Source: Alphaproteobacteria bacterium LSUCC0396 (GTDB lineage Bacteria > Pseudomonadota > Alphaproteobacteria > Puniceispirillales > Puniceispirillaceae). Taken from it: a stretch of DNA of 64,000 bases. Shown in pieces: positions 4,958 through 28,897 of this stretch. Position numbers and translations under genes: made by a program. The stretch covers positions 2,411,001-2,475,000 of the forward strand of contig CP166131.1 in assembly GCA_041228345.1 (NCBI GenBank), given 5' to 3'. The notes under the pieces are model-generated. The model searched no databases, was not told the DNA's origin, and saw only the letters and a program-made list of their open reading frames with translations. Numbering within the stretch: position 1 is the first letter of the stretch; the number at the start of each line of letters is the position of its first letter.

Positions 4958-5030
4958 CATCTGTTGAGTTAAAGCCGTTCATGCTGTAAATCAGTGGACC
5001 AATTTAACCTTGATGGTGACGAGGCGTATC

Positions 5031-10762: not shown

Positions 10763-10961
10763 AGTCTCATAATCGACATCAAAAAGGCAATTGTTCCATC
10801 ATGTTGTTATGAAAGACTGTGGTTCGTCGTAAATTTGGTTTAATTGGTCGGTTCCGGTTGCAAAACTAACCCTCAGGTGTTTTAGTTATTGCAGCAAAAG
10901 GGAAATGGTTCGGCGTTGATCTATTGACCTATAAATAAAAGCAAAATCCGGGTAGGAAAAC

Positions 10962-12065
10962 ATGGTGCAAGCGAACGACCCATTCGTCAGTTTCAAAGGG
11001 GTCCAAAAGAGCTATGACGGCGAAACACTCGTCGTTAAGAATCTAAATCTTGACATTGCGTCGGGCGAATTTCTGACGATGCTCGGCCCGTCCGGATCTG
11101 GTAAAACAACCTGCCTGATGATGCTTGCCGGCTTTGAGACTGCAACGCATGGCGATATTGAGCTTGGTGGTCGCCCGATCAACAATATACCGCCGCATAA
11201 ACGCGGTATTGGTATGGTGTTTCAGAACTATGCATTATTCCCGCATATGACGGTTGGCGAAAATCTGGCGTTTCCTTTGTATGTGCGCAAGATGCCAAAG
11301 GCCGAGGTTGAGGATAAAGTGCGCGCCGTGCTGGATATGGTGCAGATGCTGAACTTTATCGACCGCAAACCGGCACAGCTGTCGGGTGGCCAGCAACAGC
11401 GGATTGCGCTGGCGCGTGCGTTGGTATTCAATCCTGAGCTGGTGCTAATGGATGAGCCGTTGGGCGCATTGGACAAACAGCTTCGTGAGCATATGCAATA
11501 CGAGATCAAGCATATTCACGAAAATCTGGGCGTGACCGTTGTTTATGTGACGCATGACCAATCCGAAGCCTTGACCATGTCCAACCGGATTGCAGTTTTT
11601 GACGATGGGATTATCCAACAGCTTGCTGATCCGGTAACGCTTTATGAAAAGCCGGAAAATGCCTTTGTCGCGCAATTCATCGGCGAGAATAACCAGATGC
11701 TTGGCACGGTTCAGTCGGTCAGCAAAAACATTGCGACGGTGAAGCTGGACTCGGGGGACATCGTAAAGGCGCTTGCGGTGAATATTGGTGCGGTTGGCAG
11801 CCGGACGACATTATCTGTTCGCCCTGAGCGCTGTATTGTGTCGACGAGGAAATCTGCCGCAGTCAGCACACTTGATGCGCGGATCGAAGAATTAATTTAT
11901 CTTGGTGATCATATCCGATGCCGCATGGACGTAGCAGGCGATGATCAGTTTATTGTTAAAGTGCCAAATACTTCAGGTCAGCTTGGCCTGGAAATTGGAA
12001 CATCGTTGCAGATTGGCTGGAAGAACGATGATTGCCGCGCGCTTGATTTTAAAGAACCAGTTTGA
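10962..12065 (+). CDS. potA: polyamine-type ABC transporter, ATP-binding protein
   Basis: A 367-residue ATPase subunit of the PotA class. Walker A is GPSGSGKTT (residues 42-50), the ABC signature LSGGQQQR starts near 140, and Walker B VLMDEPLGALD ends with the catalytic Glu165. The C-terminal 100 residues form the regulatory TOBE domain. It energises the import system formed with the binding protein and two permeases that follow. It is the only ABC ATPase in the window, but the polyamine context makes a role in the iron importer at 2214 unlikely, though not excluded. Confidence 0.88.
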   Translation: MVQANDPFVSFKGVQKSYDGETLVVKNLNLDIASGEFLTMLGPSGSGKTTCLMMLAGFETATHGDIELGGRPINNIPPHKRGIGMVFQNYALFPHMTVGENLAFPLYVRKMPKAEVEDKVRAVLDMVQMLNFIDRKPAQLSGGQQQRIALARALVFNPELVLMDEPLGALDKQLREHMQYEIKHIHENLGVTVVYVTHDQSEALTMSNRIAVFDDGIIQQLADPVTLYEKPENAFVAQFIGENNQMLGTVQSVSKNIATVKLDSGDIVKALAVNIGAVGSRTTLSVRPERCIVSTRKSAAVSTLDARIEELIYLGDHIRCRMDVAGDDQFIVKVPNTSGQLGLEIGTSLQIGWKNDDCRALDFKEPV

Positions 12066-12173
12066 CTATGCTGATAGTCAATAATGGCTTGCTGCCTTGG
12101 AAACGAGTAGTGGCTAGCACAAAAGAGCGGTGCGGCTCTCAAAACGCACGAACAACAAAAGGGAGTGGACATA

Positions 12174-13265
12174 ATGTCTGGATTAACGAAGAAAATAATT
12201 GCCATTGCGAGTGCGTCGGCGTTTGTCAGTAGTGCTGCGATTGCCGCTGATTTGACTGTTGTGTCATGGGGCGGTGCCTACACCAAGTCACAGGTAGAGG
12301 CCTATCACAAGCCGTGGATGGCAAAGACAGGTAAATCAATCGTATCTGAAGATTACGGCGGGGGTATTGCCGAGATCAAAGCACAGGTTGAGTCTGGAAA
12401 TGTAACTTGGGATATCGTTGACGTTGAATTGTCTGATGCTATCCGCGCCTGCGATGAAGGCCTGCTTGAGCAGATTGACCATTCAATCCTGCCGCCTGCA
12501 CCAGACGGAACGCCAGCGACCGAAGACTTCCTGCCGGGCACTTTGCATGATTGTGCCGTTGCCAACATCGTTTGGTCATCAGTTTATGCCTACGACTCAA
12601 GCAAAACACGGAACTGGAACAAGCCAACAAAGATGGCTGACTTCTTCAATACCGCAGCTTTTCCGGGCAAGCGCGGTATGCGCAAATCTCCAAAAGTGAC
12701 CCTGGAATTTGCCTTGATTGCTGATGGCGTGCCAGTTAGCCAGGTCTATGATGTTCTTGGAACTGAAGAGGGTGTGGCCCGCGCATTTGCTAAACTAGAC
12801 ACAATCAAAGATGACATTGTCTGGTGGGAAGCCGGCGCCCAGCCACCACAGCTGCTTGCTGATGGCGAAGTTGTATTCTCAACTGCGTGGAACGGTCGCG
12901 TCTTTAACGCCAAGAATGCTGAAGGCCAGTCATTTGAAATGGTTTGGGATGGTCAAATCTATGACCTTGACCTCTGGGTTATTCCAAAAGGCTCAAAGAA
13001 CAAAGAAGCCGCTCTTGATTTCCTTGCTTTTTCAACCGCAACTGAGCAGCTAGCTGCACAGGCATCATGGATTTCGTATGGTCCAGCAAGAGCGTCATCT
13101 GTTGCAAGAATTGGAACATTCCATGCCGATCCTAGCATCAAAATGGCTAGCCACATGCCAACAGCGCCTGCTAACTTCAAAAATGCGTTGCAAAACGATT
13201 TTGAGTTCTGGGCGGATAATGCCGACCAGCTGAACGAGCGTTTTAATGCTTGGTTAGCGAAGTAA
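12174..13265 (+). CDS. potD: polyamine/opine-type ABC transporter, periplasmic binding protein
   Basis: A 363-residue secreted solute-binding protein of the PotD/PotF group. The signal peptide covers about 25 residues and ends in AIAA; the mature part opens with DLTVVSWGGAYTKSQ, typical of this group, whose members bind spermidine, putrescine, opines or related cations. GGGAG 8 bases ahead supports ATG 12174 over a GTG three codons earlier. A strong hairpin terminator follows directly, probably raising binding-protein expression relative to the permeases. The ligand is not fixed by sequence; putrescine or agmatine fits the neighbours. Confidence 0.82.
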   Translation: MSGLTKKIIAIASASAFVSSAAIAADLTVVSWGGAYTKSQVEAYHKPWMAKTGKSIVSEDYGGGIAEIKAQVESGNVTWDIVDVELSDAIRACDEGLLEQIDHSILPPAPDGTPATEDFLPGTLHDCAVANIVWSSVYAYDSSKTRNWNKPTKMADFFNTAAFPGKRGMRKSPKVTLEFALIADGVPVSQVYDVLGTEEGVARAFAKLDTIKDDIVWWEAGAQPPQLLADGEVVFSTAWNGRVFNAKNAEGQSFEMVWDGQIYDLDLWVIPKGSKNKEAALDFLAFSTATEQLAAQASWISYGPARASSVARIGTFHADPSIKMASHMPTAPANFKNALQNDFEFWADNADQLNERFNAWLAK

Positions 13266-13278
13266 GGCCAAAGACTTT

Positions 13279-13321
13279 TGCGATCACATGAAATGCATCA
13301 TGTGGTCGCATTTATTTTTCC
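13279..13321 (+). terminator. intrinsic terminator / mRNA-stabilising hairpin after the binding protein gene
   Basis: A 13-bp stem (TGCGATCACATGA pairing with TCATGTGGTCGCA, with one G-U pair) closes a 6-base loop and is followed by TTTATTTTT. It lies 13 bases after the binding-protein stop and before the permease genes, the usual place for partial termination in ABC operons. Confidence 0.85.
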
Positions 13322-13346
13322 ATTTTAAACGAGATCTATTTTGACC

Positions 13347-14609
13347 ATGGCAGATAGTCAAACAGTCCAGCTTGAGCCAATTACGGCCGCAGATGGAACG
13401 CCGCTGAAGAAAAAGCTGGCGCAGGCGCTATTCCGCAGTCGGGTGCGCGCTGTTTCTCTTGTGTTGCCGTTATTTGCCTTTGTGATGGCCAGTTTTGTGA
13501 TTCCGATTATCGCGTTGATGTGGCAAGGGGTCTATAACGACACATTTTCATCCTACACGCCAAATTTAACAGCGCAGTTAAAGCTCTGGGATGGTATGTC
13601 CGATCCTGATGAGGCGATGTATGCAGCGCTTGTCACCGATCTGGAAACCGCGCGCGCCGAGCGAACCATTGGCCGGATCGCAACACGGGTCAATCAGGAA
13701 TATCCCGGAACAAGATCGCTATTTACCAGCACGGCGCGCAAAGCCAAAAAGCTAGAGGCGCCATTCAAAGACAGTGTGATCAAAACCAACAAGAAATGGG
13801 ATAATATCGAAGTCTGGCGGGCGATGAAAATCACCTCGCAGGATCTAACCCCCGGCTTTTATGCGACCGCGCTAGATGGACGTTATACCGTTGATCAGGG
13901 TTTTATCAGCCAAGATGAAAACCGGCAGATTTATGTGCAACTATTCTGGCGCACAATGATGATTTCCGGAACGGTTATGGGCTTGTGTCTTTTGCTTGGG
14001 TATCCGGTGGCCTATCTGCTGGCAACTTTGCCGCTACGCACGTCTAATCTGTTGATGATTATGGTGCTGTTACCGTTCTGGACCTCGCTTCTGGTGCGGA
14101 CAACGGCGTGGATTGCGCTTTTGCAATCACAGGGCGTTATCAATGATTTACTGGTATATGTTGGCATAACTGCCGATGATGCGCGCTTTTCGCTGATCTA
14201 TAATATGACTGGCACAATCGTTGCGATGACGCATATTCTGCTGCCTTTCATGATCCTGCCGCTTTATTCGGTGATGAAAACAATCCCGCCATCATATATG
14301 CGGGCCGCACGTTCGCTTGGGGCGACGCCGACGAAGGCGTTTATCAAGGTCTATATGCCACAGACGATACCGGGCATTGGTGCAGGTGGGTTGCTCGTGT
14401 TTATTCTTGCAATCGGCTATTACATCACGCCAGCGCTGGTTGGCGGTCAGGATGGCCAGTTGATCTCGAACATGATCGCCTATCATATGCAGAAATCGCT
14501 AAACTGGTCTTTGGCGGCTGCGCTTGGTGGCATATTGTTGGCGGGTGTTCTATTGCTCTATTGGGCTTATGACCGAGTTATCGGTATCGATAATATGAAG
14601 CTGGGGTAA
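13347..14609 (+). CDS. potB: polyamine-type ABC permease, PotB-like with long periplasmic insert
   Basis: An inner-membrane permease of 420 residues, about 130 longer than classical PotB. The extra length is a hydrophilic stretch between the first helix (ending near residue 60) and the second (starting near 195), so it faces the periplasm. The rest is standard: six helices and the EAA loop RAARSLGATPTKAFIKVYMP. The ATG at 13347 replaces a TTG two codons earlier. It pairs with the next gene to form the channel. The insert probably contacts the binding protein; that is inference. Confidence 0.82.
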   Translation: MADSQTVQLEPITAADGTPLKKKLAQALFRSRVRAVSLVLPLFAFVMASFVIPIIALMWQGVYNDTFSSYTPNLTAQLKLWDGMSDPDEAMYAALVTDLETARAERTIGRIATRVNQEYPGTRSLFTSTARKAKKLEAPFKDSVIKTNKKWDNIEVWRAMKITSQDLTPGFYATALDGRYTVDQGFISQDENRQIYVQLFWRTMMISGTVMGLCLLLGYPVAYLLATLPLRTSNLLMIMVLLPFWTSLLVRTTAWIALLQSQGVINDLLVYVGITADDARFSLIYNMTGTIVAMTHILLPFMILPLYSVMKTIPPSYMRAARSLGATPTKAFIKVYMPQTIPGIGAGGLLVFILAIGYYITPALVGGQDGQLISNMIAYHMQKSLNWSLAAALGGILLAGVLLLYWAYDRVIGIDNMKLG

Positions 14610-14613
14610 AATA

Positions 14614-15528
14614 ATGGCAAAACTTCCCCCCTATACCAGTACTGGTGAATATATTTGGCATTACACATTTCGCGTGATTTGCGGGCTGATCTTTTTGTTT
14701 TTGATTCTGCCGATCCTTGTGGTTTTGCCGCTGTCATTCAATGTAGAACCCTATTTCAGCTTTACCGAGGGCATGCTGAGCTTTGATCCTAATGCCTATT
14801 CGCTACGGTGGTATGAAGATATTCTGCGGAACGGTATGGGTGCGCCTGACGCGCCGTTTAGCTGGGCGTGGCTTTCTGATACATGGAATAATGGCCAGTG
14901 GATGCGCGCTATTCGCAACAGTTTTTTCATTGGAATTTGCGCGACCTTGCTGTCAACGGCGCTTGGTACATTGGCGGCGATTGGCCTTAGCCGGTCCGAA
15001 ATGCCCTATCGCCGCTTGATCATGTCAATTCTCATTTCGCCGATGATCGTGCCTTTGGTGATTACTGCAGCTGGGATGTTTTATTTCTACTCGCAAGTCC
15101 AGTTAAGCCAGACTTATCTTGGCGTGATTATGGCGCATGCGGTGCTAGGAACGCCCTTTGTAATCATTACGGTTACCGCAACGCTGGTCGGTTTTGATAA
15201 ATCACTGGTGCGCGCGTCACAGTCGCTTGGTGCGGGTGCGGTGACAACGTTCCGCAAGGTGCAGATGCCGCTGATCATCCCCGGGGTGGTTTCGGGCGGA
15301 TTATTTGCCTTTATCACGTCGTTTGATGAGGTGGTTGCGGTCTTGTTTCTCGCCAGTCCCGAGCAGCGCACAATCCCGCGCCAGATGTGGTCGGGTATCC
15401 GCGAGCAGATCAGCCCGACGATTTTGGCGGTTGCGACATTATTGGTGATTCTGTCGATTATTTTGCTTACTGTTCTGGAATTGCTGCGGCGGCGGTCTGA
15501 GCGTTTGCGTGGGATCACCAGCAGCTAA
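14614..15528 (+). CDS. potC: polyamine-type ABC permease, PotC-like
   Basis: A 304-residue permease with six predicted helices and the EAA loop RASQSLGAGAVTTFRKVQMP in the second half. It starts 4 bases after the previous permease gene ends, so they are co-translated and together make the membrane channel. A polar stretch of about 50 residues after the first helix is slightly longer than in E. coli PotC. The substrate is inferred from family and context only. Confidence 0.85.
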   Translation: MAKLPPYTSTGEYIWHYTFRVICGLIFLFLILPILVVLPLSFNVEPYFSFTEGMLSFDPNAYSLRWYEDILRNGMGAPDAPFSWAWLSDTWNNGQWMRAIRNSFFIGICATLLSTALGTLAAIGLSRSEMPYRRLIMSILISPMIVPLVITAAGMFYFYSQVQLSQTYLGVIMAHAVLGTPFVIITVTATLVGFDKSLVRASQSLGAGAVTTFRKVQMPLIIPGVVSGGLFAFITSFDEVVAVLFLASPEQRTIPRQMWSGIREQISPTILAVATLLVILSIILLTVLELLRRRSERLRGITSS

Positions 15529-15646
15529 TTACCTTGCGTAGATGAGGTTGCGAGAACTGAAGCCTCTTTTGGTGCCACTTGTTTTTCTGGCCGTGACGTT
15601 GCAAAACCGATGCGTATAAGACAGATGAAAAAGGGGTTCATCATCA

Positions 15647-16384
15647 ATGGATGATCGGAAAATTCTGGTGCTAACCGGGGCAAGCAGGGGCATTGGTCAT
15701 GCAACCGTCAAGCGTTTTTCGGGCGCTGGGTGGCGGGTGATTACCTGTTCGCGCCACGGGTTTCCGGAAAATTGTCCATGGGAGGCCGGGCCGGAGGATC
15801 ACTTGCAGATTGATCTATCATCACCTGATGATGTCGGGCGCGGTGCGGCAGAATTGCTTACACGCCTCGATGGCAAGCCGCTTCATGCGCTGGTGAATAA
15901 TGCGGCAATTTCGCCCAAAACGTCGAAAGGCAGCAGGCTTGATTGCCACCAAACGCCGCTAGATTTGTGGCAGCACGTCTATCAGGTTAATGTGTTTGCA
16001 CCGGTTATGCTGGCGCAAAGACTGTGTGATCCGCTGCGCCAGGGGCGAGGCTCAATCGTTAATGTAACATCAATCGCCGGCAGCCGGGTGCATGAATTTG
16101 CTGGGTCTGCCTATGCCACATCAAAGGCCGCGCTTAGTGCGCTAACGCGCGAAATGGCGTCTGATTTTGGCAGGCTCGGTATTCGGGTGAATGCGATTGC
16201 GCCAGGTGAAATTAAAACTGATATTCTATCACCTGATAGTGAGGCCACGATCTTGCCGCAGATACCGCTTGGCCGGTTTGGCAGTGCAGATGAGGTTGCC
16301 GATACGGTATTTTTCCTTTGTAGTGATCAGGCACATTATTTGAATGGCGCCGAAATTCATGTGAATGGTGGACAGCACGTTTAG
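15647..16384 (+). CDS. short-chain dehydrogenase/reductase
   Basis: A classical SDR of 245 residues. It has the cofactor motif TGASRGIG (residues 10-17), NNAA (84-87) and the catalytic Ser142, Tyr156 and Lys160 (YATSK). The C-terminal HVNGGQHV is typical of enzymes related to 3-oxoacyl-ACP reductase. The substrate is unknown. It lies between the polyamine importer and an aminotransferase on the same strand, 118 bases after potC, so it could belong to the same pathway, perhaps reducing or oxidising an aldehyde or alcohol intermediate. Confidence 0.82.
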   Translation: MDDRKILVLTGASRGIGHATVKRFSGAGWRVITCSRHGFPENCPWEAGPEDHLQIDLSSPDDVGRGAAELLTRLDGKPLHALVNNAAISPKTSKGSRLDCHQTPLDLWQHVYQVNVFAPVMLAQRLCDPLRQGRGSIVNVTSIAGSRVHEFAGSAYATSKAALSALTREMASDFGRLGIRVNAIAPGEIKTDILSPDSEATILPQIPLGRFGSADEVADTVFFLCSDQAHYLNGAEIHVNGGQHV

Positions 16385-16494
16385 GTAAATGCCAAGAGCC
16401 GGTTGCTAGAGATCAAAATCTGTTAGATATAGATCAAGAGATGGAGCGCCGGTTACTGGCGGTTTATCGTCACTTAAGAATAAGGACCTGAAAA

Positions 16495-17916
16495 ATGACA
16501 CACCCCCCCCCCCCATCTGATCAGGTGATTGCTGGTAATTCGCCGGCAAGCCGTGACATCGCGTTTCATATGCATCCCTACACTAATCCGGCAGTTCTTG
16601 GTGATGCCGGGCCGCATATCATGGCCGAGGGCAATGGGGTTTTTGTTATCGATGAGACTGGAAGCCGATTTTATGAGGGCATGAGTGGGCTGTGGTGCAC
16701 ATCGCTGGGGTTTTCCGAGCCTGAATTGATTGATGCTGCAATGGCGCAGTTTAAAAAGCTGCCATTCTATCACAGCTTTGCCGGTAAAACGGTCAATCCG
16801 GCGATTGATCTTGCTGAAATGCTGATTGCCAACGCACCGCCGGCGGGCGGCGACAGCGTGATGAGCAAGGTGTTTTTTGCGGCTTCTGGGTCCGAGGCTA
16901 ATGATACCGCGATGAAAATGGTCTGGTATTATAACGCAGCGCTTGGGCGGCCGGAAAAGCGCAAGATTATCAGTCGCAAAAAAGGCTATCATGGCGTCAC
17001 CATGGCGGCGGCAAGCATGACAGCGCTGGCCTATGCGCAGGATGGATTTGGCCTGCCGCTGGATTTTGTCAAACATACCACCGCGCCCGATTTTTATAAT
17101 GGGGCTGCTGTTGGTGAAAGCGAAGAAGATTTCGCCAGTCGCTGCGCGGCAGATTTGGAAGAGCTTATCCTGAATGAGGGGCCCGATACAGTTGGCGCGT
17201 TATTTGCCGAACCGGTGATGGGGGCTGGCGGGGTGATTATTCCGCCGCGAACCTATTTTGAAAAGATCCGTGCAGTTTTAACGAAATATGATGTTCTGCT
17301 GGTTGCGGATGAGGTGATTTGCGGCTTTGGGCGTACTGGAAATATGTGGGGGTCGCAAACGATGGATGTGCGCCCCGATATGCTGACCTGCGCCAAGGCG
17401 CTGTCATCTGCCTATTTGCCAATTTCGGCGGTGATGCTGTCGGAAAAAGTCTATGCGCCGATCGCCAAACAGGCTGAAACACTGGGTATTTTTGGGCATG
17501 GCTACACCTATTCGGCGCATCCAGTCTGTGCAGCGGTGGCACTTCGTGCCCAGCAATTGATGCAGGAACGTGATATTGTTGGTCATGTCCGCAGCATTGC
17601 GCCGCAATTCAAAGCTCGGATTGAGCGGCTTGCGCGGTTTGATTTTATTGGCAATCTACGGTCAATCGGTTTGATCGGTGCGATGGAATTTGCCGCCGAT
17701 AAACATAGCGGTAAAAAATTTGATCCGGCGCATAAGATCGCCGCACAGGCGGTTGCTGCCATTCAAAAACATGGCGTAATTCTTCGCGCGCTACCCGGTG
17801 ATATTGTCGGTTTTTGCCCACCTTTGATCATTTCAGATGTAGAAATTGGCGATATGTTTGACCGTATTGAGGGGGCACTTGACGAATTTGGCGCCGTCGC
17901 CGCAAGGCTAGGCTAG
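16495..17916 (+). CDS. class III aminotransferase (putrescine/spermidine:pyruvate-type)
   Basis: A 473-residue PLP enzyme with the class III features: GSEAND near residue 132, catalytic Asp272 in LVADEVICGFGRTG, and PLP Lys301 in TCAKALSSAYLP. The N-terminal HMHPYTN and overall length match the SpuC-like group, which moves an amino group from putrescine or a similar omega-amine to pyruvate. Context (agmatinase, polyamine importer, aldehyde dehydrogenase) supports a polyamine role. Codons 3-7 are a run of twelve C bases coding for His-Pro-Pro-Pro-Pro; a change of one C would shift the whole frame. Confidence 0.85.
   Translation: MTHPPPPSDQVIAGNSPASRDIAFHMHPYTNPAVLGDAGPHIMAEGNGVFVIDETGSRFYEGMSGLWCTSLGFSEPELIDAAMAQFKKLPFYHSFAGKTVNPAIDLAEMLIANAPPAGGDSVMSKVFFAASGSEANDTAMKMVWYYNAALGRPEKRKIISRKKGYHGVTMAAASMTALAYAQDGFGLPLDFVKHTTAPDFYNGAAVGESEEDFASRCAADLEELILNEGPDTVGALFAEPVMGAGGVIIPPRTYFEKIRAVLTKYDVLLVADEVICGFGRTGNMWGSQTMDVRPDMLTCAKALSSAYLPISAVMLSEKVYAPIAKQAETLGIFGHGYTYSAHPVCAAVALRAQQLMQERDIVGHVRSIAPQFKARIERLARFDFIGNLRSIGLIGAMEFAADKHSGKKFDPAHKIAAQAVAAIQKHGVILRALPGDIVGFCPPLIISDVEIGDMFDRIEGALDEFGAVAARLG
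16503..16514. repeat. poly-C tract of 12 in the aminotransferase coding start
   Basis: Twelve consecutive C bases begin at the third base of codon 3. Tracts of this length are prone to slipped-strand mispairing, and the position right after the start codon would turn the gene on or off. No other C tract this long was seen in the window. Confidence 0.95.
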
Positions 17917-17950
17917 CCCTATGGCCGGGTCGTGACAAGGAGGAGCTGGT

Positions 17951-18853
17951 TTGGGGCTGTTTGACCGTTTTTGGAACAGCGCCCATACGGTGTTGACGAT
18001 GGCAACCTTGATGTGGGCAGGCCATGCGGTGGCATTGCGTATGTCGGTGGGCGAGATTTCGCCTGTCCTGCTCATGCAATCGCGCTGGCTTGTCGCTTTT
18101 ATCATTCTTGTGCTGGTGTTTCACCACAGCGTAAGGCGTTACCTACCGCTGGTTTTAGATAATTGGCGTTGGGTTTTTGGCATGGGCGGTGTTGGCCTTG
18201 CCGGGTTTAGCCTGCTGCTTGTTTATGCCGCGCAATATACCACGGCGGTCAATCTTGGCATTATGCAAGGCGGCATTCCGGCCTTTGTTATGCTGTTTGG
18301 CTGGTTGATGTTCCAGACGCGGATTGGCTGGCTGCAATTTTTTGGGCTTTGTTCGTCATTAATGGGGATTCTGGTTCTGGTCAGTGCTGGCAGCATTGCA
18401 ACGATATTGGCGCTGCAGTTCAATATTGGCGATTTGATGATGGTTGTTGCCTGCTTTTGCTATGGTGCCTACACGCTGGGCCTGTCGCGGCGATTGGATA
18501 TGCCGCCGGTCATTATGTTGTGCTTTTTTGCGTTCTGTGCGTTTTTTACCTGCAGCCTGTTCAGTATTGCCGAATATGCGCGTGGTGATCTGGTTTTGCC
18601 CGGCTTTAAGGGCGGGCTGCTACTGATCTATTCGGCGGTTTTTCCAACAATTTTGGCGCAGACATTTTTTATGCGTGGAGTCGAATTGACCGATGCAAAC
18701 CGCGCTGGATTATACGTTAATTTGGTGCCGGTATTCGCGGCGTTTCTGGCAGTTATGATCTTGCCGGAACGTCTTTACCTTTATCATCTGATAGCTTTGG
18801 CGATGGTGCTTGGTGGCATCTATCTTGCCGAGCGTGGTAAGCGGGCAAATTAA
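17951..18853 (+). CDS. DMT superfamily transporter (EamA)
   Basis: A 300-residue membrane protein with about ten hydrophobic helices in two EamA repeats, the topology of metabolite exporters such as RhaT- and YdcZ-like proteins. The start is a TTG, chosen because AGGAGG lies 7 bases ahead and no better codon follows before the first helix. It begins 35 bases after the aminotransferase, so it is probably in the same transcript. The substrate is unknown; export of a pathway amine or amino acid is only a guess. Confidence 0.75.
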   Translation: MGLFDRFWNSAHTVLTMATLMWAGHAVALRMSVGEISPVLLMQSRWLVAFIILVLVFHHSVRRYLPLVLDNWRWVFGMGGVGLAGFSLLLVYAAQYTTAVNLGIMQGGIPAFVMLFGWLMFQTRIGWLQFFGLCSSLMGILVLVSAGSIATILALQFNIGDLMMVVACFCYGAYTLGLSRRLDMPPVIMLCFFAFCAFFTCSLFSIAEYARGDLVLPGFKGGLLLIYSAVFPTILAQTFFMRGVELTDANRAGLYVNLVPVFAAFLAVMILPERLYLYHLIALAMVLGGIYLAERGKRAN

Positions 18854-18887
18854 CAAAATGGCGATCTGATCAGTCCCTGCCGGTTAC

Positions 18888-18915
18888 TTGACAAGAGATG
18901 CTGACTATGTGCAAT
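18888..18915 (+). promoter_or_regulatory. possible sigma-70 promoter for the aldehyde dehydrogenase gene
   Basis: TTGACA at 18888-18893 is followed after 16 bases by TGCAAT, a 4-of-6 match to the -10 box. It lies in the 167-base gap before the aldehyde dehydrogenase start at 19021. The -35 match is perfect but the -10 is weak, so this is a candidate only. Confidence 0.35.
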
Positions 18916-19020
18916 TTGGCCGCTGTTCGCATGATAGGGTGATCTGCGCGCCTTTCGCTATATATGATTGTTGGGTGCGGCCTTGATAGGGCGGACGGAA
19001 CCCAAGCCATTGGAGGCTTT

Positions 19021-20457
19021 ATGCTAGATAAAACAGAATTTTATATCAATGGGGCGTGGATGCCATCACTGGATGGGCGCTCTTTCCCTGTCCTTAATCC
19101 AGCCACCGAAGAGGCATTTGCCACAATCACCATTGGCGGCGCCGAAGATGCCAAAGCGGCGATTGCTGCCGCCAAGGCAGCCTTTCCAACATGGTCGATG
19201 ACCAGTCCTGCGGAACGTGCAGATTATCTGCAAAGGCTGCTTGCGGTTTACACGTCACGGCATGCTGAAATGGGCGCCGTGATCTCGACGGAAATGGGTG
19301 CGCCGATTGATATGGCGGTCAGTGATCAGGCCGGGGCAGGGATCAGCCACCTCAAGTCATTCATACGTGCGTTGGGTGCATTGGAATTTCAGCGGCCGTT
19401 GCGTGATGGTGTCGTGGGTCAGGATATTGCCTATGAGGCTGCCGGTGTTGCGGCATTGATCACGCCTTGGAACTGGCCGATGAACCAAGTTGTGCTAAAG
19501 GTTGGCGCGGCGCTGGCGGCGGGCTGTACAATGGTGTTGAAACCATCCGAAATCGCACCAATGTCCAGCATTCTATTTGCCGAGATGGTGCATGAGGCTG
19601 GTCTGCCTGCGGGTGTCTTTAACATGGTTAATGGCGATGGCGTCGGCGTTGGTACAATCTTGTCATCGCATTCCGATATTGATGTTGTATCCTTTACCGG
19701 ATCGACAAGGGCTGGCGTTCTGATCAGCAAGGCCGCGGCTGATACAGTGAAAACCGTGTCGCTGGAGCTTGGTGGAAAATCGCCAAATCTGGTGTTTGAT
19801 GATTGCGATGTTGAGGCGGCGGTGCGCCGTGGCGCGGCTTTTTGCTTTAACAATACTGGCCAGTCCTGTAACGCCGCAACGCGGATGCTGGTGCAGCGTA
19901 ATGTCTATGATCAGGCGGTTGAGTTTGCTGCGTCTGAGGCGGCAGCCACCAAGGTTGACCTGCCGTCTAATTCAGGCAATCACATTGGCCCATTGGTATC
20001 TGAGGCACAATTTGACAAGGTGCAGAAATTAATCCAGTCGGGCATTGATGAAGGCGCAAGGCTGGCGGCCGGCGGTGTTGGACGCCCAGAAGGGATGAAT
20101 CGTGGCTGGTTTGTAAAGCCAACTGTTTTTGCCGACGCAACACCGGAAATGACCATTATTCGTGAGGAAATCTTTGGCCCGGTTTTAGCAATGATGCCGT
20201 TTGACACCGAGGAAGAGGCGATTGCCATGGCCAATGATACACCATACGGTCTGGCTGCCTATATTCAGACCGGAGATATGGATCGTGCGCGCCGCGTCGC
20301 GGCTAGATTGCGGGCGGGGATGATTCAGGTGAACGGTGCCTCGCGGGCTGCGGGCAGCCCGTTTGGCGGCTATAAACAATCAGGCGTTGGCCGTGAGGGC
20401 GGTTTTTGGGGCATTGAAGAATTTCTTGAAATCAAAACCATCAGCGGGATCGTCTAA
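19021..20457 (+). CDS. aldehyde dehydrogenase
   Basis: A 478-residue NAD(P)-dependent aldehyde dehydrogenase. Catalytic Cys283 (TGQSCNAAT) and general-base Glu249 (ELGGKSPN) are both present with the usual 34-residue spacing, and the cofactor motif is FTGSTRAG. GGAGG just ahead of the ATG at 19021 makes this the start rather than the ATG 19 codons upstream. As the last gene of the plus-strand amine block it could oxidise the aminoaldehyde made by the class III aminotransferase. The family has wide substrate range, so this is inference. Confidence 0.85.
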   Translation: MLDKTEFYINGAWMPSLDGRSFPVLNPATEEAFATITIGGAEDAKAAIAAAKAAFPTWSMTSPAERADYLQRLLAVYTSRHAEMGAVISTEMGAPIDMAVSDQAGAGISHLKSFIRALGALEFQRPLRDGVVGQDIAYEAAGVAALITPWNWPMNQVVLKVGAALAAGCTMVLKPSEIAPMSSILFAEMVHEAGLPAGVFNMVNGDGVGVGTILSSHSDIDVVSFTGSTRAGVLISKAAADTVKTVSLELGGKSPNLVFDDCDVEAAVRRGAAFCFNNTGQSCNAATRMLVQRNVYDQAVEFAASEAAATKVDLPSNSGNHIGPLVSEAQFDKVQKLIQSGIDEGARLAAGGVGRPEGMNRGWFVKPTVFADATPEMTIIREEIFGPVLAMMPFDTEEEAIAMANDTPYGLAAYIQTGDMDRARRVAARLRAGMIQVNGASRAAGSPFGGYKQSGVGREGGFWGIEEFLEIKTISGIV

Positions 20458-20467
20458 CCGGCTGGCT

Positions 20468-21094
20468 TTAGTCATTATCACTTAAACCTGCACCGGCACC
20501 GGCAAGGCGCGACGCCTCGGTTGCTGGTGCATAGGTGTTTTTGGCAAAGCTGTTTAAAACCGTGACACAAGCGGCCGCCGTTTCTGGAACGCGGGGTAAA
20601 TCGGTGTCGCTAATGCGGGTCAGCGGCGGCATGTGATCAATCTTCGTTGAAATCCGGCAATGCGATGCGGCCGTTAAAATGGCAGTGTCGTTGCCCGAAT
20701 AGGCAAATCCGTCTTGGCTTAGGCTGAAAACCACAGTCTCAAGCGATATTGTAATTGGCGTTATGTCCGCGCGAAGTGCAATAAACGGGATCAGCAACAA
20801 CGGTGTTCGCATACGGCTGAACTCTACCTCATCGCCAAAGAGGCCATCACCATAGGCGGCGCCGGTGGCAATCGGACAATAATGCCCCTGATCACCAGTC
20901 ACATCCGGCCATGCTGTAATCTCGCCGGTTTGCCGCCAGCTTAAATAACGGCACAAGGCAGCAATGCCGGGCAATTGGTGTCGTTGCAACCATTTCACCG
21001 CATATCCGGCTTCGTCCGCCAGCCCCCAATCCATACCGCAGCCACGTGCAGCCTTGGTGGAAAGCGCGCCAATTTCACCAAGCGACCAACTCAT
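20468..21094 (-). CDS. uncharacterised protein, DUF3726-like
   Basis: A 208-residue soluble protein. The N-terminus, MSWSLGEIGALSTKAARGCGMDWGL, has the look of the DUF3726 family, which has no assigned function. Features are an N-terminal helical region and several Cys and His residues (Cys19, CRYL near 48, HYCP near 71, SHCR near 148) that could bind metal. Its ATG overlaps the stop of the 590-residue gene as ATGA, so the two are made together and may interact. It ends the four-gene operon that starts with an aldehyde dehydrogenase at 25336. It ends 10 bases from the converging plus-strand aldehyde dehydrogenase. Confidence 0.7.
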   Translation of the reverse strand: MSWSLGEIGALSTKAARGCGMDWGLADEAGYAVKWLQRHQLPGIAALCRYLSWRQTGEITAWPDVTGDQGHYCPIATGAAYGDGLFGDEVEFSRMRTPLLLIPFIALRADITPITISLETVVFSLSQDGFAYSGNDTAILTAASHCRISTKIDHMPPLTRISDTDLPRVPETAAACVTVLNSFAKNTYAPATEASRLAGAGAGLSDND

Positions 21095-22863
21095 ACGGTG
21101 CTTTGGCTCGGTGCGCTATTATGGCCAAGGGGGGGATAAAACAGAATATCGGGATCAAGCTGGCTCAACTCGTCCGGAAAAGGCGCGCCCTGATACATGG
21201 TAATGCGCAGCCACCGGTCAGAACGCGGGTCGAACTTTGAAGCGCCAAAAAATGACAATTTGCAGCGCAGCAGGTCAATTGGCTGCATTTCTGCCGAGAT
21301 GGTGTTATCCTGAATTTCGGCATAAGGCAGGGCAAAGACCGTTTGGGTGCGGCGCACAATATGCCGGTGTTCGGGATGTTTTAACAGGAACATAGCGACC
21401 GTATCATCGCCAGATGTGCTGTCTTGGCGGATCCATTGATCGATTGCCTGCATTGCTAAAACCGCATCACGCCCAGGTGCTAGCGGCTGTTCATAAGGCT
21501 CAATCGGTTCTTCGAACCTCTCGCCCAGCCGCGGTTCCAGCTTTTCTTCGGACACATACCAGACCCGCGCCAACGCGTCATTCCGGGCATAATCAATGCG
21601 GTTCGTCCAGCCATAGATACTGCCCATCATCCGCCGAAGTTCGACAAGCCGCATTGATCCGTCGATGCGGAAATGCGCTGCCTCATCAGCCGCCATACCT
21701 GCGGCCAGATCATCAATTAAGGAGCCGTGATCCTCAAGCAGCAGTGATACCAGCTGTTCCTGACCCTCAAGGCTGAGGTTGGCTTCGCCCCAGCGATAGA
21801 TTTGATCCCAAGGCTGGTTGATGCTGGCATCAAGCGTGCGCACAAAACCGTCCAGTCGCACAAGATCATCACGCAAACCCTCGGTCTTGGCGCGCTGATA
21901 CGGGCTGTCCGTTGTCCATTCATTGGCATTTTTGGCGGCTTTTGCGACCATCGTCAAAAACCGATCTAGACCAGCCTGATCGCTTGCCCCAAGGGCGCGT
22001 ACCCGCGCTAGCGCTGTTTCACGCGCATTGATCCATGCATGAATAAGCGAGGGATGATTGATCAGAAACGGCGCCATGCCAAGACCGGTGGAATTGCCAA
22101 CGCCAATGCGGCGGCGAATATCCAGATTTAGTTTCACCGCGGTTTCAGGCGATTTTGCCGCGGCCATATGTTCGACAATATCAATGGTAAATGACCGGAT
22201 TAGCCAGACCGCCAGCAATTCAGGCTGGAACGAGCCGGAAAATTCAGGCCGGTTTGCCCAGATATCACGGTCAGCCGCGCCAAATTTCCCCGATCCATAA
22301 ACCGCCGTTGTCCGCATTAGATAGCCAATCGGCTCAATTTTTTCGGGGTTGGGCTGCGTCCCTGCGGCAAGGCAGTCACGCACATAATCAAACAGTCGAA
22401 CCGACCGGTTTGCCCGCGATAGGACAAATTCACCATCCGAAATACGTCCGGCCTCTTGCAGTGGCACATTTTGCTGCAGCCTTTGGATGTCAAGGTCGCT
22501 GATGACGCCATCATGCAGGGTGAAGGTTGCGTCCCACGCCTCGGCGATGACCCGATCCGAGCGTTTCTCAGCAGGTAAATCATGCGCAAAAGCAACCAAT
22601 GTATAGCTGCGCTCGGGGCCAATAGCCTCATAAGTGGCAACGCCGACCCCATGCTGATCAATGTTCCAGCGGCTACGCTTAAACTGCCAGTTTTCAGCCT
22701 TGAGACGGCGCAAGAGAACCCGCATAAAGCTGAGGCGGCTCTGATGAAATGATCCGATGCGTGCCAGCGTCATAATCTGTGCGGCCGGACGCAGGGGGAT
22801 AGCCTTGTTAGCGGCAGTTGATGTGCCTGATGCCCCGTTTTTCAAATCTGATGTTTTCATCAT
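21091..22863 (-). CDS. uncharacterised 590-residue protein of a catabolic operon
   Basis: I do not recognise a characterised family. The protein is soluble, rich in charged helical sequence, with no signal peptide or membrane segment. Distinct stretches likely to be conserved are YGSGKFGAADRDIW near residue 190, NSTGLGMAPFLINHPSLIHA near 255, and LRRMMGSIYGWTNRIDYARN near 430. No Walker, Rossmann or PLP signature is visible. It is coupled by ATGA overlap to a DUF3726-like gene and follows an M19-like gene by 36 bases, downstream of a semialdehyde dehydrogenase. The pair may form one complex; the function is unknown. Confidence 0.75.
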   Translation of the reverse strand: MMKTSDLKNGASGTSTAANKAIPLRPAAQIMTLARIGSFHQSRLSFMRVLLRRLKAENWQFKRSRWNIDQHGVGVATYEAIGPERSYTLVAFAHDLPAEKRSDRVIAEAWDATFTLHDGVISDLDIQRLQQNVPLQEAGRISDGEFVLSRANRSVRLFDYVRDCLAAGTQPNPEKIEPIGYLMRTTAVYGSGKFGAADRDIWANRPEFSGSFQPELLAVWLIRSFTIDIVEHMAAAKSPETAVKLNLDIRRRIGVGNSTGLGMAPFLINHPSLIHAWINARETALARVRALGASDQAGLDRFLTMVAKAAKNANEWTTDSPYQRAKTEGLRDDLVRLDGFVRTLDASINQPWDQIYRWGEANLSLEGQEQLVSLLLEDHGSLIDDLAAGMAADEAAHFRIDGSMRLVELRRMMGSIYGWTNRIDYARNDALARVWYVSEEKLEPRLGERFEEPIEPYEQPLAPGRDAVLAMQAIDQWIRQDSTSGDDTVAMFLLKHPEHRHIVRRTQTVFALPYAEIQDNTISAEMQPIDLLRCKLSFFGASKFDPRSDRWLRITMYQGAPFPDELSQLDPDILFYPPLGHNSAPSQSTV

Positions 22864-22899
22864 TTACATTACTCTAACCGCGTGACTGCAGATAAATTT

Positions 22900-23880
22900 T
22901 CAAGGTGTCTGCGGGCCAAAATTTTCATCATAGAACCGCAGCCAATTCTCTCCCATAACGGCGGCGGTGTCGTCTTTGGAAAAACCATATTTTTCCAAAC
23001 CTGCGGTAATCGCACCAAAATGCCGGTTATCTTCAAACCAGCTTGGCATTGGCGGAAAACCGGCGTCGCTGGCCGAGCCTTCGCCATAATCAATTTCCTT
23101 TGTCCATCGACCGACGCGCATCCATTCAACAATACTGTCAGGCTGATCCTGACAAAGATCGGATCCGATGCCAATATTGTCAATGCCCATTAAATCGGCG
23201 GTGCGTGCAATCATCTCGCAAAAGCTCTCGAGGCTGCAATCAGATTTGTTTTTCAGGTGATGCGGATATAATGAAAAGCCCAGCATACCGCCAGATTGTC
23301 CAAGGGCACGAAGCACATCATCAGATTTATTGCGCTTTGCCGGGTGCCAGAAATAAGGGTTGGCATGGGTAATGGCAACGGGCCGCTCGGAAATATCAAT
23401 TGCATCTAATGTCGATCGCTCGGCTGAATGGCTCATATCGACGACCATGCCAACGCGGTTCATCTCTTTTATGACCTGCCGCCCCATGCGCGTGACGCCG
23501 CTATCCTCATCCTCATAACAGCCAGTCGCAAGCAGTGACTGATTATTATAGGTCAGTTGCATAAAGCGAACGCCAAGGCTATGCCAGATTTCAACGAGGC
23601 CAATGTCATCCTCAATCGGTGAGGGATTTTGAAAGCCGAAAAAGATCGCAGTTCGGCCCTCGCGTTTTGCGCGCCGCACATCATCGCCGGTAGTCCCGTG
23701 AAAAATCAGCTCAGTATAGCGCTCAAACCACCGGTTCCATTGTTCGACATTGGCCACGGTTTCACGAAACATCTCATGATAGGCAATTGTAACATGAACC
23801 GCATCAACGCCGCCTTCACGCATTTGCTTGAAGATTTTTTCTGACCAATTGGCATATTGCAGATTGTCGATAAGATGCAT
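22900..23880 (-). CDS. M19 (membrane dipeptidase)-like protein lacking part of the metal site
   Basis: A 326-residue TIM-barrel protein of the renal dipeptidase family. The two later metal-ligand histidines are kept (DMSHSAE and AITHANP), as is RNKSDDVLRAL. The N-terminal HxD ligand pair is absent: the protein opens with LIDNLQYANWSEKIF. The bridging Glu of the usual EG motif appears to be Gln (GFQNPS). Relatives with this N-terminus lie in betaine/carnitine-type catabolic clusters of other proteobacteria, where their reaction is unclear. The ATG at 23880 is 4 bases after the aldehyde dehydrogenase stop; a TTG nine codons earlier would overlap it. Confidence 0.75.
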   Translation of the reverse strand: MHLIDNLQYANWSEKIFKQMREGGVDAVHVTIAYHEMFRETVANVEQWNRWFERYTELIFHGTTGDDVRRAKREGRTAIFFGFQNPSPIEDDIGLVEIWHSLGVRFMQLTYNNQSLLATGCYEDEDSGVTRMGRQVIKEMNRVGMVVDMSHSAERSTLDAIDISERPVAITHANPYFWHPAKRNKSDDVLRALGQSGGMLGFSLYPHHLKNKSDCSLESFCEMIARTADLMGIDNIGIGSDLCQDQPDSIVEWMRVGRWTKEIDYGEGSASDAGFPPMPSWFEDNRHFGAITAGLEKYGFSKDDTAAVMGENWLRFYDENFGPQTP

Positions 23881-23884
23881 CAGA

Positions 23885-25336
23885 TTATTCCGGCTTGCCA
23901 GCGGCAATATAGCTCGTCTTTACAATGGTATAAAATTCCTTGGCATAACCGCCCTGTTCGCGCGGGCCGTACGAGCTGTTGCCGCGTCCGCCGAATGGCA
24001 CATGATAATCGGTACCTGCAGTTGGCAGGTTAATCGTGACAACGCCAGTTTGCGCATTGCGGCGGAAATGCGTTGCCCGCGCCAGCGAACGCGTGATGAT
24101 CCCCGATGTCAGGCCAAAATCAGTGTCGTTTACGACCTCCAGCGCCTCATCATACGACCCGACCCTGATCACAGCAGCGACCGGGGCAAACATCTCTTCA
24201 CGGTTTATGCGCCAGTGATTTTTTGTGCCGGCGACGACGGCCGGTGTCATGTAATAGCCATCATCATCACGGCTAACCTGCTCGCCGCCACACAGAATTT
24301 CGCCGCCTTCCTGCTTTGCGACATCAATCCATTGCAGGTTTTCCTGTAATTGTCCGGCGCTGACCACGGGGCCGATCTGGGTGCCGTCGGCAAGCGCGTG
24401 ACCAACCTTCATGGCCGATGCGGCCGCAACCAGCCGTTCGACAAATTCATCATGAACGGCATCATGCACAACGAGGCGCGAAGAGGCGGTGCATTTTTGA
24501 CCAGTGCCGCCAAATGCGCCGCCAAGCGCGGTTGCAACTGCAATATCAAGATCACCATCATCCATAATGGCAAGGGCATTTTTTGATCCCATTTCCATCT
24601 GTATCTTGGTCAAATTGCCTACCGCCGCGACGGCAATTTGTTTGCCAACTTCCAGCGAACCGGTAAAGCTGATCGCATCAATCGCAGGGCTTTCGATAAG
24701 TGATTGTCCGATGCTGCCACCGGCGCCCATCACCAGATTGAACAACCCGTGCGGGATATCCTGACGCGCAATAATTTCGGTCAACGCAACCGCGGAGGCT
24801 GGTACCAGATTTGCTGGCTTCCAGATTACGGCGTTGCCAAAGGCCAAAGCCGGCGCAATTTTCCAAACGGCGGTTGCTGTCGGGAAATTCCACGGGCTGA
24901 TAATAGCGACCACACCCACAGGTTCGCGCCGCACATCAATTTCGATTCCATCGCGTACGCTGTCGGCGGTATCGCCGATCTGGCGCAAAATTTCGGCGGC
25001 GTAATAGGTAAAGAACTGACCCGCCCGATAGATTTCGCCAACCCCCTCGGCAAGTGGCTTGCCTTCTTCGCGGCTAAGCAGCGTGCCAAGCTCAACGCGG
25101 CGCTCCATCAGCTCATTACCGATATTCATCAATATTGTCTGGCGTGCCTCAAGACCGGTAGCGGCCCATTTTTTCTGAGCGGTTTTTGCCGAATCAAGGG
25201 CGCTGTCCAACTGATCACGGCTTGCCTGCGCATAATGGCCAATCAGATCAGTGACGTCAGATGGGTTAATATTTGCGACATTGTCTTGCCCATTGCACCA
25301 AGTGCCTGCAATAAAATTCTGACCTATGTTCGACAT
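23885..25336 (-). CDS. aldehyde dehydrogenase, 2-oxoglutarate-semialdehyde dehydrogenase-like
   Basis: A 483-residue aldehyde dehydrogenase. Cys282 (GTGQKCTASSR) and Glu248 (QMEMGSKNALAI) form the active site; the EMGSKN variant and the TGQKCTASSR block match 2,5-dioxovalerate (2-oxoglutarate semialdehyde) dehydrogenases of sugar-acid and hydroxyproline pathways more than general aldehyde dehydrogenases. AGAGG ahead of ATG 25336 supports this start over one 18 codons longer. It heads the operon with the M19-like, 590-residue and DUF3726-like genes. If the assignment is right, the operon feeds its carbon into 2-oxoglutarate. Confidence 0.82.
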   Translation of the reverse strand: MSNIGQNFIAGTWCNGQDNVANINPSDVTDLIGHYAQASRDQLDSALDSAKTAQKKWAATGLEARQTILMNIGNELMERRVELGTLLSREEGKPLAEGVGEIYRAGQFFTYYAAEILRQIGDTADSVRDGIEIDVRREPVGVVAIISPWNFPTATAVWKIAPALAFGNAVIWKPANLVPASAVALTEIIARQDIPHGLFNLVMGAGGSIGQSLIESPAIDAISFTGSLEVGKQIAVAAVGNLTKIQMEMGSKNALAIMDDGDLDIAVATALGGAFGGTGQKCTASSRLVVHDAVHDEFVERLVAAASAMKVGHALADGTQIGPVVSAGQLQENLQWIDVAKQEGGEILCGGEQVSRDDDGYYMTPAVVAGTKNHWRINREEMFAPVAAVIRVGSYDEALEVVNDTDFGLTSGIITRSLARATHFRRNAQTGVVTINLPTAGTDYHVPFGGRGNSSYGPREQGGYAKEFYTIVKTSYIAAGKPE

Positions 25337-27742: not shown

Positions 27743-28897
27743 ATGGATTTGATGAACAAATATCCGCGTTTGTCGGATCTTAGAGTGCCAGCGTCAAGGC
27801 GGATTCCAAAATTTGTTTTTGCTTATCTGGACTCGGGCACCGGCCATGATCGGGCGAAAGATGAAAACCGCGCCTTTCTCGACTCGATTGAGCTTACCCC
27901 CCAATTCATGCGGGGCCGGGTTGATCCAGATTTAACCACCAAGCTTGGCAAAAGAACCTTTAAGGCACCATTTGGTGCGGCGCCGATTGGATTGTCGTCG
28001 CTGATCTGGCCGGGCGCAGAATCGATCATCGGCCGCGCCGCAAAAAAACACGGTTTTCCGTACACGCTGAGCACTGTTGCCGGCGAGTCCATCGAAATGT
28101 TGGCAGAGTCTGCCGGTGAGATGGGGTGGTTTCAGCTATATGCGCCGCGCGACCGTGACCTGATGCGTGATTTGCTGCGCCGGGCCAAGGGCTGCGGCTA
28201 TACCACATTAGTGGTTACAGCTGATGTGCCATCGCCGAGCCGGCGGGAGCGGATGCGGATCGCTGGCGCGCCGCTTGGTAGTCGCGGGAATTCAGCCTTT
28301 TCTCCGCGGGTGATCTGGCAAAGCCTGATGCGGCCTGAATGGGCGGTGCGGACGTTGCTAAACGGCGGGGCACGGTTTCGGAATATGGAACCCTACGCGA
28401 AAAACGATGGCGCAATGGGCATTACCAAATTTATTGGCGACCAATTAAATGGATCGCTTGATTGGGATTATCTTGCGGAAATTCGTGCCCAATGGGATGG
28501 CGAAATTTATCTCAAAGGTGTGCTTCACGGTCAGGACGCGGCGCGGGCAATCAAGCTGGGCATTGATGGAATTGTGGTCTCGAACCATGGCGGTCGCCAG
28601 TTAGATGCAGCACCGCCGCCACTGGCGCAGTTATCAGCTATTCGTGCCGCGGTTGGCAAAGACGTGCCGTTAATTGTCGATAGCGGCATTATGTCAGGCC
28701 TTGATGTGGTAAGAGTGTTGTCAGCTGGTGCCGATTTTGCCCTGATCGGCCGCGGCTTTATGTATGCTGTGGCGGCACTCGGCAATAAGGGCGGCGAACA
28801 TGCTGCGTCAATATTGCTTGAAGAAGTTCGCGATGTTATGGCACAGCTTGGTCTCTCGACGATTGATGAGGTCAAACGGCTGCAAAATACCGGCTGA
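27743..28897 (+). CDS. FMN-dependent alpha-hydroxy-acid dehydrogenase (LldD family), second paralogue
   Basis: A 384-residue TIM-barrel flavoprotein. VVSNHGGRQLD carries catalytic His282; LKGVLHG holds the conserved Lys. It differs clearly from the family member at 5031, including a long middle loop with SRRERMR. Members oxidise L-lactate, glycolate or mandelate and pass electrons to quinone or cytochrome c. It follows a cytochrome c gene on the same strand, but a terminator separates them, so a functional pair is only possible. Confidence 0.85.
   Translation: MDLMNKYPRLSDLRVPASRRIPKFVFAYLDSGTGHDRAKDENRAFLDSIELTPQFMRGRVDPDLTTKLGKRTFKAPFGAAPIGLSSLIWPGAESIIGRAAKKHGFPYTLSTVAGESIEMLAESAGEMGWFQLYAPRDRDLMRDLLRRAKGCGYTTLVVTADVPSPSRRERMRIAGAPLGSRGNSAFSPRVIWQSLMRPEWAVRTLLNGGARFRNMEPYAKNDGAMGITKFIGDQLNGSLDWDYLAEIRAQWDGEIYLKGVLHGQDAARAIKLGIDGIVVSNHGGRQLDAAPPPLAQLSAIRAAVGKDVPLIVDSGIMSGLDVVRVLSAGADFALIGRGFMYAVAALGNKGGEHAASILLEEVRDVMAQLGLSTIDEVKRLQNTG

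Follow-up and report, generated by a model that had tools for sequence, protein, structure and literature searches.

An operon of a SAR116 bacterium carrying a paired 590-residue and DUF3726 protein couple, a candidate for the catabolism of an N-methylated betaine

Homarine (N-methylpicolinate) is a known marine betaine, reported to reach up to 3% of particulate carbon (PMC8269262) in a paper whose correction states that the homarine standard was contaminated and the concentrations overstated. It occurs in diatoms, with no confirmed Ruegeria pomeroyi transporter reported for it (PMC9723723, PMC9038784), and its rapid drawdown by this bacterium has been described (PMC12817926). N-methylglutamate dehydrogenase is reported to take part in homarine catabolism (PMC13390433), and the same paper cites a 2026 report of a conserved homarine pathway (Nat Microbiol 2026; 11:1531). 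A route that breaks down another N-methylated pyridine carboxylate, trigonelline, is known to proceed through TgnA and TgnB (PMC8269262). The present work concerns a four-gene operon located at positions 20468 to 25336 of a 64,000-nucleotide stretch of Alphaproteobacteria bacterium LSUCC0396 (contig CP166131.1, positions 2,411,001 to 2,475,000), referred to below as the window. We propose that it could be the form taken in SAR116 by a widespread module for the catabolism of N-methylated betaines, most probably homarine, a reading in which we place a little more belief than doubt. A homarine operon, homABCDER, is said to comprise five genes and a regulator, to occur in SAR11, SAR116 and Rhodobacterales, and to lead to N-methylglutamate and glutamate. 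Relatives of the operon described here display LysR, aldehyde dehydrogenase (ALDH), M19, 590-residue, DUF3726 and Ldh genes, which is such a five-genes-plus-LysR layout; the window differs from it, since no LysR, BCCT or Ldh_2 gene stands next to its four genes.

Gene content of the operon and pairing of the two uncharacterised families

The open reading frame (ORF) coordinates confirm the operon, with four ORFs all on the minus strand:

23885..25336, minus strand, ALDH, 2,5-dioxovalerate-dehydrogenase-like (ATG at 25336, stop ending at 23885; Pfam Aldedh, E 1.6e-149)
22900..23880, minus strand, M19-family protein with an altered metal site (ATG at 23880; Pfam Peptidase_M19, E 8.1e-80)
21091..22863, minus strand, 590-residue protein of an uncharacterised family (Pfam and NCBIfam give no match above cut-off), proposed as the larger subunit of the pair
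20468..21094, minus strand, DUF3726 protein (PF12525), proposed small subunit of the pair

The layout is that of the preliminary description, with gaps of 4 bases between the ALDH and M19 genes and 36 bases between the M19 and 590-residue genes, and an ATGA overlap between the 590-residue and DUF3726 genes. The DUF3726 protein is a member of PF12525 (E 9e-16, 58 bits, gathering cut-off 22.1), and the M19 protein belongs to Peptidase_M19 at the family level (268.8 bits, cut-off 26). The 590-residue protein has nothing above the Pfam cut-offs, the best match being Rv0428c_C (E 0.018, 15.1 bits vs 27.2), and in NCBIfam no family was found for the M19, 590-residue or DUF3726 proteins at E <=0.1. 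The nearest NCBIfam models of the ALDH are the 2,5-dioxovalerate and alpha-ketoglutaric semialdehyde dehydrogenases, but it scores under both equivalog cut-offs (NF052305, 473.6 vs 750; NF042993, 462.4 vs 770), so that it is like these enzymes and not a member; a true 2-oxoglutarate-semialdehyde dehydrogenase is not supported by these scores. Promoter and terminator scans gave counts within the range of shuffled sequence (7 against a mean of 4.5, standard deviation 2.3, and 7 against a mean of 7.4, standard deviation 2.4, respectively). The host genome is a single contig of 2.59 Mb, and the nearest among the named records are an unclassified Alphaproteobacteria metagenome-assembled genome (MAG), whose 590-residue protein is 99% identical, and Candidatus Puniceispirillum or SAR116 records.

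The 590-residue and DUF3726 families go together, because they coincide across genomes, adjoin in named loci and are naturally fused. Of 385 class genomes, drawn once and searched by profile, 54 have the 590-residue family and 43 have DUF3726 (one of the latter matches, in G346, scoring below Pfam's cut-off). All 43 of the 43 genomes with DUF3726 also carry the 590-residue family, with the genes adjoining in each when the listed places are compared by eye; across the phylum, the 590-residue profile matches 29 of 398 genomes. Named loci were then taken as the best 80 of 179 candidates, each gene being counted only in loci with enough flank: DUF3726 adjoins the 590-residue gene in 77/77, and M19 adjoins the pair in 74/77. 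The four-base start/stop overlap seen in the window recurs in 39 of the 80 loci compared (window included), and two of the 80 hold a fusion, that is, a single ORF in the betaproteobacterial MAGs L066 (788 residues) and L071 (815 residues); these are 77% identical and perhaps reflect one event. A third fusion record comes from Mesorhizobium sp. 131-2-1, in which a gene of 2,445 bases annotated as a DUF3726 protein spans the 590-residue match too. Taken as sequence evidence, these observations support an operon with a functional 590-residue/DUF3726 pair, as the preliminary description had suspected. That the M19 and dehydrogenase genes belong with the pair stands well for M19 and less evenly for the ALDH, which lies within 4.5 kb of it in 33 of 53 named loci (SAR11 12/28, SAR116-like 6/6, others 15/19).

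One further locus (L122:6050-8656) encodes an 868-residue homologue of the 590-residue protein, whose extra C-terminal part contains a DUF3726-like stretch by eye and matches no Pfam family.

Predicted structure of the pair and the putative metal site of the M19 protein

The AlphaFold2 model of the 590-residue protein, built from 64 sequences, is confident (predicted local distance difference test, pLDDT, 90.8; predicted TM-score, pTM, 0.91). Searched against the PDB with Foldseek as a whole chain, with domains not split, it gave a best E of 0.13 and, among the matches listed, a query TM-score of at most 0.11; re-alignment with VIA reached a best Z of 5.8, with a root-mean-square deviation of 6.1 over 129 residues. 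The top VIA matches (uricase, Z 5.8 and 5.1; START/PR-10-like proteins; NAT10 and Mom acetyltransferase-like proteins) lie under the tool's background, for which the typical best Z is 7 to 8, and were discarded. No match was obtained in the viral models of BFVD at E <=0.001, and the family profile against PDB sequences gave a best E of 0.2, to V-ATPase subunit C and coiled coils. The family alignment (64 rows) contains 29 invariant positions, of which 9 are Arg and 8 Gly, and no cofactor motif was recognised on inspection of the protein. Co-folding, envisaged in the preliminary description, was run on the natural fusion L066 with an alignment of 2 fusions, 12 rows of the 590-residue family and 44 rows of DUF3726 (alignment A3). 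The model is too weak to provide an interface: its pLDDT is 68.8 and its pTM 0.67, and averages over ten residues range from 31 to 78 across the DUF3726 part. No PDB match was found for it.

A possible origin of DUF3726 is suggested by remote paralogues of the pair. The small partner of the haloarchaeal paralogue (Natrinema) matches Ldh_2 (PF02615) with an E of 4.8e-9 and 36.2 bits, just below the cut-off of 38.8, and the Sinorhizobium small partner matches it with an E of 0.024, while two further small partners have no Pfam match. Profile comparison relates the small partners to Ldh_2 with a probability of 84.3 and DUF3726 to the small partners with 88.8, whereas the direct link between DUF3726 and Ldh_2 is weak (19.6). 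The two families also differ in length (~335 residues for Ldh_2 vs ~200 for DUF3726), and the SHG region of the Ldh_2 alignment is not seen in DUF3726. By this weak and indirect path, DUF3726 may be an Ldh_2 relative in reduced form, with the role of small subunit.

The remote paralogue pairs belong to one haloarchaeon and three bacteria, which are rhizobia or Bosea (L137:9091-11621; L138:8944-12390; L139:9001-12362; L141:8998-12394), each pair consisting of a 590-like protein and an overlapping or adjoining small partner annotated as hypothetical. In the three bacteria, a dipeptidase and an ATP-binding cassette (ABC) transporter come next; in the archaeon, the pair is followed by a BCCT transporter.

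The M19 protein resembles the M19 dipeptidases, such as renal dipeptidase and GliJ, in its family match and in retaining His151, His172 and Asp241, and differs from them in carrying Gln84, within a GFQN motif, where GliJ has Glu. The latter residue bridges the metals in two-metal M19 dipeptidases. The amidohydrolase structure 2i5g, which aligns to residues 3-319, shares the Gln. Gln84, His151, His172 and Asp241 are invariant in 103/103 aligned rows, the alignment holding the window protein and one M19 match of 280-480 residues per locus, with several loci being copies of the same gene, so that the rows are not independent. The N-terminal HxD that provides metal ligands in M19 enzymes is not seen in the conserved N-terminus, I-D-x-L-Q-Y, and the GliJ alignment starts past that region. 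Because Gln occupies the position of the metal-bridging Glu, a dipeptidase role is improbable, and the protein is probably not a normal two-metal dipeptidase.

The substrate and a proposed route

The neighbours of the operon on annotated plasmids of relatives indicate the type of pathway. In Ruegeria TM1040 the order is soxB, D, A and G, a helix-turn-helix regulator, LysR, ALDH, M19, a BCCT transporter, 590-residue, DUF3726 and an Ldh-family reductase; Phaeobacter inhibens DOK1-1 keeps this order, with the sox alpha gene absent from an incomplete gene table. Roseateles XES5 presents sox alpha, delta and beta, a GlxA-type regulator, LysR, ALDH, M19, 590-residue, DUF3726, Ldh, a glycine-betaine ABC transporter, purU and folD, and Aminobacter MDW-2 has LysR, ALDH, M19, 590-residue, DUF3726, Ldh and a glycine-betaine ABC transporter. 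A RidA gene lies near the operon in Phaeobacter DSM 17395 and Pseudomonas MPC6. Among 44 of the 54 genomes with the 590-residue family (G000, G057, G058, G064, G074, G077, G084, G088, G122 and G346 being left out), 19 have an Ldh_2 gene within 9 kb of it. Given this company (transporters for betaines, an imine-type reductase, an N-demethylase of the Sox type and, in one case, folate one-carbon (C1) genes), an N-methylated betaine would be imported and converted into an N-methyl amino acid, which would then be demethylated. Homarine is the best fit, because it is a marine betaine and N-methylglutamate dehydrogenase has been reported in its catabolism.

The route set out below is a proposal as regards its substrate, the sequence of its reactions and what each enzyme does, the pair most of all. 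The betaine would be imported by a betaine-type or polyamine-type transporter. The 590-residue/DUF3726 heteromer would then carry out an unusual first step, a ring opening or dearomatisation yielding an N-methylated C5-type aldehyde, which the ALDH would oxidise; with ordinary assignments for all the other genes, the pair is the best candidate for this hard step. The M19 derivative could cleave a C-N or formamide bond, and an Ldh_2-family reductase, found within the operon in many relatives and elsewhere in the host genome, would form N-methylglutamate by reducing an N-methyl imine. The final demethylation of N-methylglutamate, to glutamate and methylene-tetrahydrofolate, would fall to an enzyme of the SoxBDAG type. 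It can be hypothesised, as a tentative and rather doubtful extension, that the pair represents a new class of two-subunit enzymes with a new fold and a stripped-down Ldh_2 small subunit, which dearomatises an N-methylpyridinium ring, or opens it, with none of the known oxygenase cofactors, and that the rhizobial and haloarchaeal sister pairs act on other N-methylated compounds.

Candidates for the last two steps were located away from the operon. The host genome has two SoxB-family genes (L154:9391-10698 and L155:7652-8902), which are 55.5% identical to each other and belong to different clades; their products may be of the Sox or the Mgd type. The SoxB at position 2531684 is 73-76% identical to three operon-linked SoxBs, against 56-57% for the other host SoxB. 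Only the L155 copy, and not the L154 copy, belongs with the SoxBs found next to the operon in three other organisms. Three Ldh_2 proteins are encoded in the genome, none of them beside the operon. At the level of the class, soxB is present in 50 of the 54 genomes with the 590-residue family and in 97 of the 331 without it.

Several points weigh against the homarine reading. The soxB association is uncorrected for kinship or lifestyle, and the best host Ldh_2 shares no more than 36% identity with the enzyme of the TM1040 operon. The additional genes are a minority in the named loci (Ldh_2 4/73, BCCT 7/67, LysR 9/49, soxB 1/14, summed over three groups), in the named loci of SAR11 and SAR116 the operon was found to have none of the four as a neighbour, and the ALDH is near the pair in just 12 of the 28 SAR11 loci. 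The correspondence with the hom operon is a tentative one, a lead. As to the pairing itself, the two families were not seen to occur widely apart, the outcome by which the preliminary description would have been refuted: in the 385 class genomes DUF3726 was not found without the 590-residue family, and 11 of the 54 genomes with that family have no DUF3726 at E 0.001. Among these, G057, G122, G338 and G373 hold remote paralogues (~30% identity), in G074, G077, G084 and G088 the gene is fragmented or truncated where a contig ends, and G058 is a marginal match; G258 and G310 carry full-length 590-residue homologues (43 and 46% identity) and either are genuine exceptions or possess a DUF3726 partner that has diverged beyond the reach of the model. 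Finally, as to homarine, R. pomeroyi was first reported to grow poorly on it, less well than on trigonelline (PMC8269262), though a later paper describes its rapid drawdown (PMC12817926).

The preliminary description had placed a proline betaine or hydroxyproline derivative at the head of the pathway, a C5 amino-acid derivative being degraded to 2-oxoglutarate and the ALDH acting as the 2-oxoglutarate-semialdehyde dehydrogenase. This substrate class has been revised, since the neighbours in relatives fit an N-methylated betaine better, and we consider it unlikely. The 2,5-dioxovalerate dehydrogenase models are indeed the nearest to the ALDH, Ldh_2 enzymes could reduce cyclic imines too, and two plasmids have a ring-hydroxylating dioxygenase alpha gene no more than ~10 kb away from the pair; but the ALDH falls far under both equivalog cut-offs, and the dioxygenase does not recur in the nine other plasmid neighbourhoods viewed, no profile search having been made for proline racemase, epimerase or Rieske genes. 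A different N-methylated betaine or N-heterocycle, such as a trigonelline or pipecolate derivative, processed by the same overall logic, is likewise unlikely in our estimation, though a little less so. It would agree with neighbours that define an N-methyl betaine only, with the occurrence of the family in haloarchaeal, soil and plant-associated records, settings in which one would expect homarine less, and with the different partners of the remote paralogues. The spread over SAR11, SAR116 and roseobacters, on the other hand, suits an abundant marine osmolyte, and trigonelline has its own known route, TgnA/TgnB (PMC8269262), of which nothing similar, the luciferase-type oxygenase included, was read among the conserved neighbour clusters here, no profile search having been made for it.

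It could also be argued that the pair is an accessory complex of the betaine pathway, acting in repair, as a chaperone or as a scaffold, the first step being catalysed by an enzyme elsewhere in the genome. The absence from DUF3726 of the SHG region conserved in the Ldh_2 alignment and the want of a recognised cofactor motif in the 590-residue protein would be in keeping with this view, which we nevertheless find very unlikely: the 29 invariant positions, rich in Arg, suggest a catalytic core, and the pair is kept with M19 in small SAR11 genomes where the ALDH is often not near.

If the homarine reading is correct, two families of unknown function would form the unexplained core of the use of a phytoplankton osmolyte by SAR11, SAR116 and roseobacters. 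A new fold and, probably, a novel mode of attack on an N-methylpyridinium ring would come with them, and the pair would serve as a metagenome marker of the homarine-use trait. None of the papers searched mentions 'DUF3726'.

Transport genes and other features of the neighbourhood

One transporter of the window is shared with SAR11 loci:

10962..15528, plus strand, polyamine-type ABC transporter (ATPase, binding protein, two permeases; potA-type, PotB/PotC-like and SBP_bac_8 matches)

Thirteen SAR11 loci have the M19-590-DUF3726 block beside an ALDH and four ABC-transporter gene clusters shared with this region. It is therefore possible, the link being uncertain, that the transporter at 10962..15528 is the importer for the operon. 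In most other SAR11 loci, the neighbours are what we take, from their sequences, to be glycine-betaine transport and C1 genes.

The transporter is itself part of a longer series on the plus strand (9806-20457) that comprises, towards the operon, an arginase-family gene, the polyamine-type ABC transporter, a short-chain dehydrogenase/reductase, a class-III aminotransferase, an EamA transporter and a second ALDH. This series may be a gene cluster for polyamines or guanidino compounds. On a plasmid of Phaeobacter inhibens DSM 17395 (L132:5128-15554), the operon stands beside genes annotated as dimethylsulfoniopropionate demethylase and DmdD, and two places of this plasmid match the 590-residue protein. 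Two L-lactate-dehydrogenase-like genes are also present on the plus strand of the window, at 5010-6167 and 27743-28897; scored with NF008398 (cut-off 376), the first is above it with 435.4 and the second below it with 280.7.

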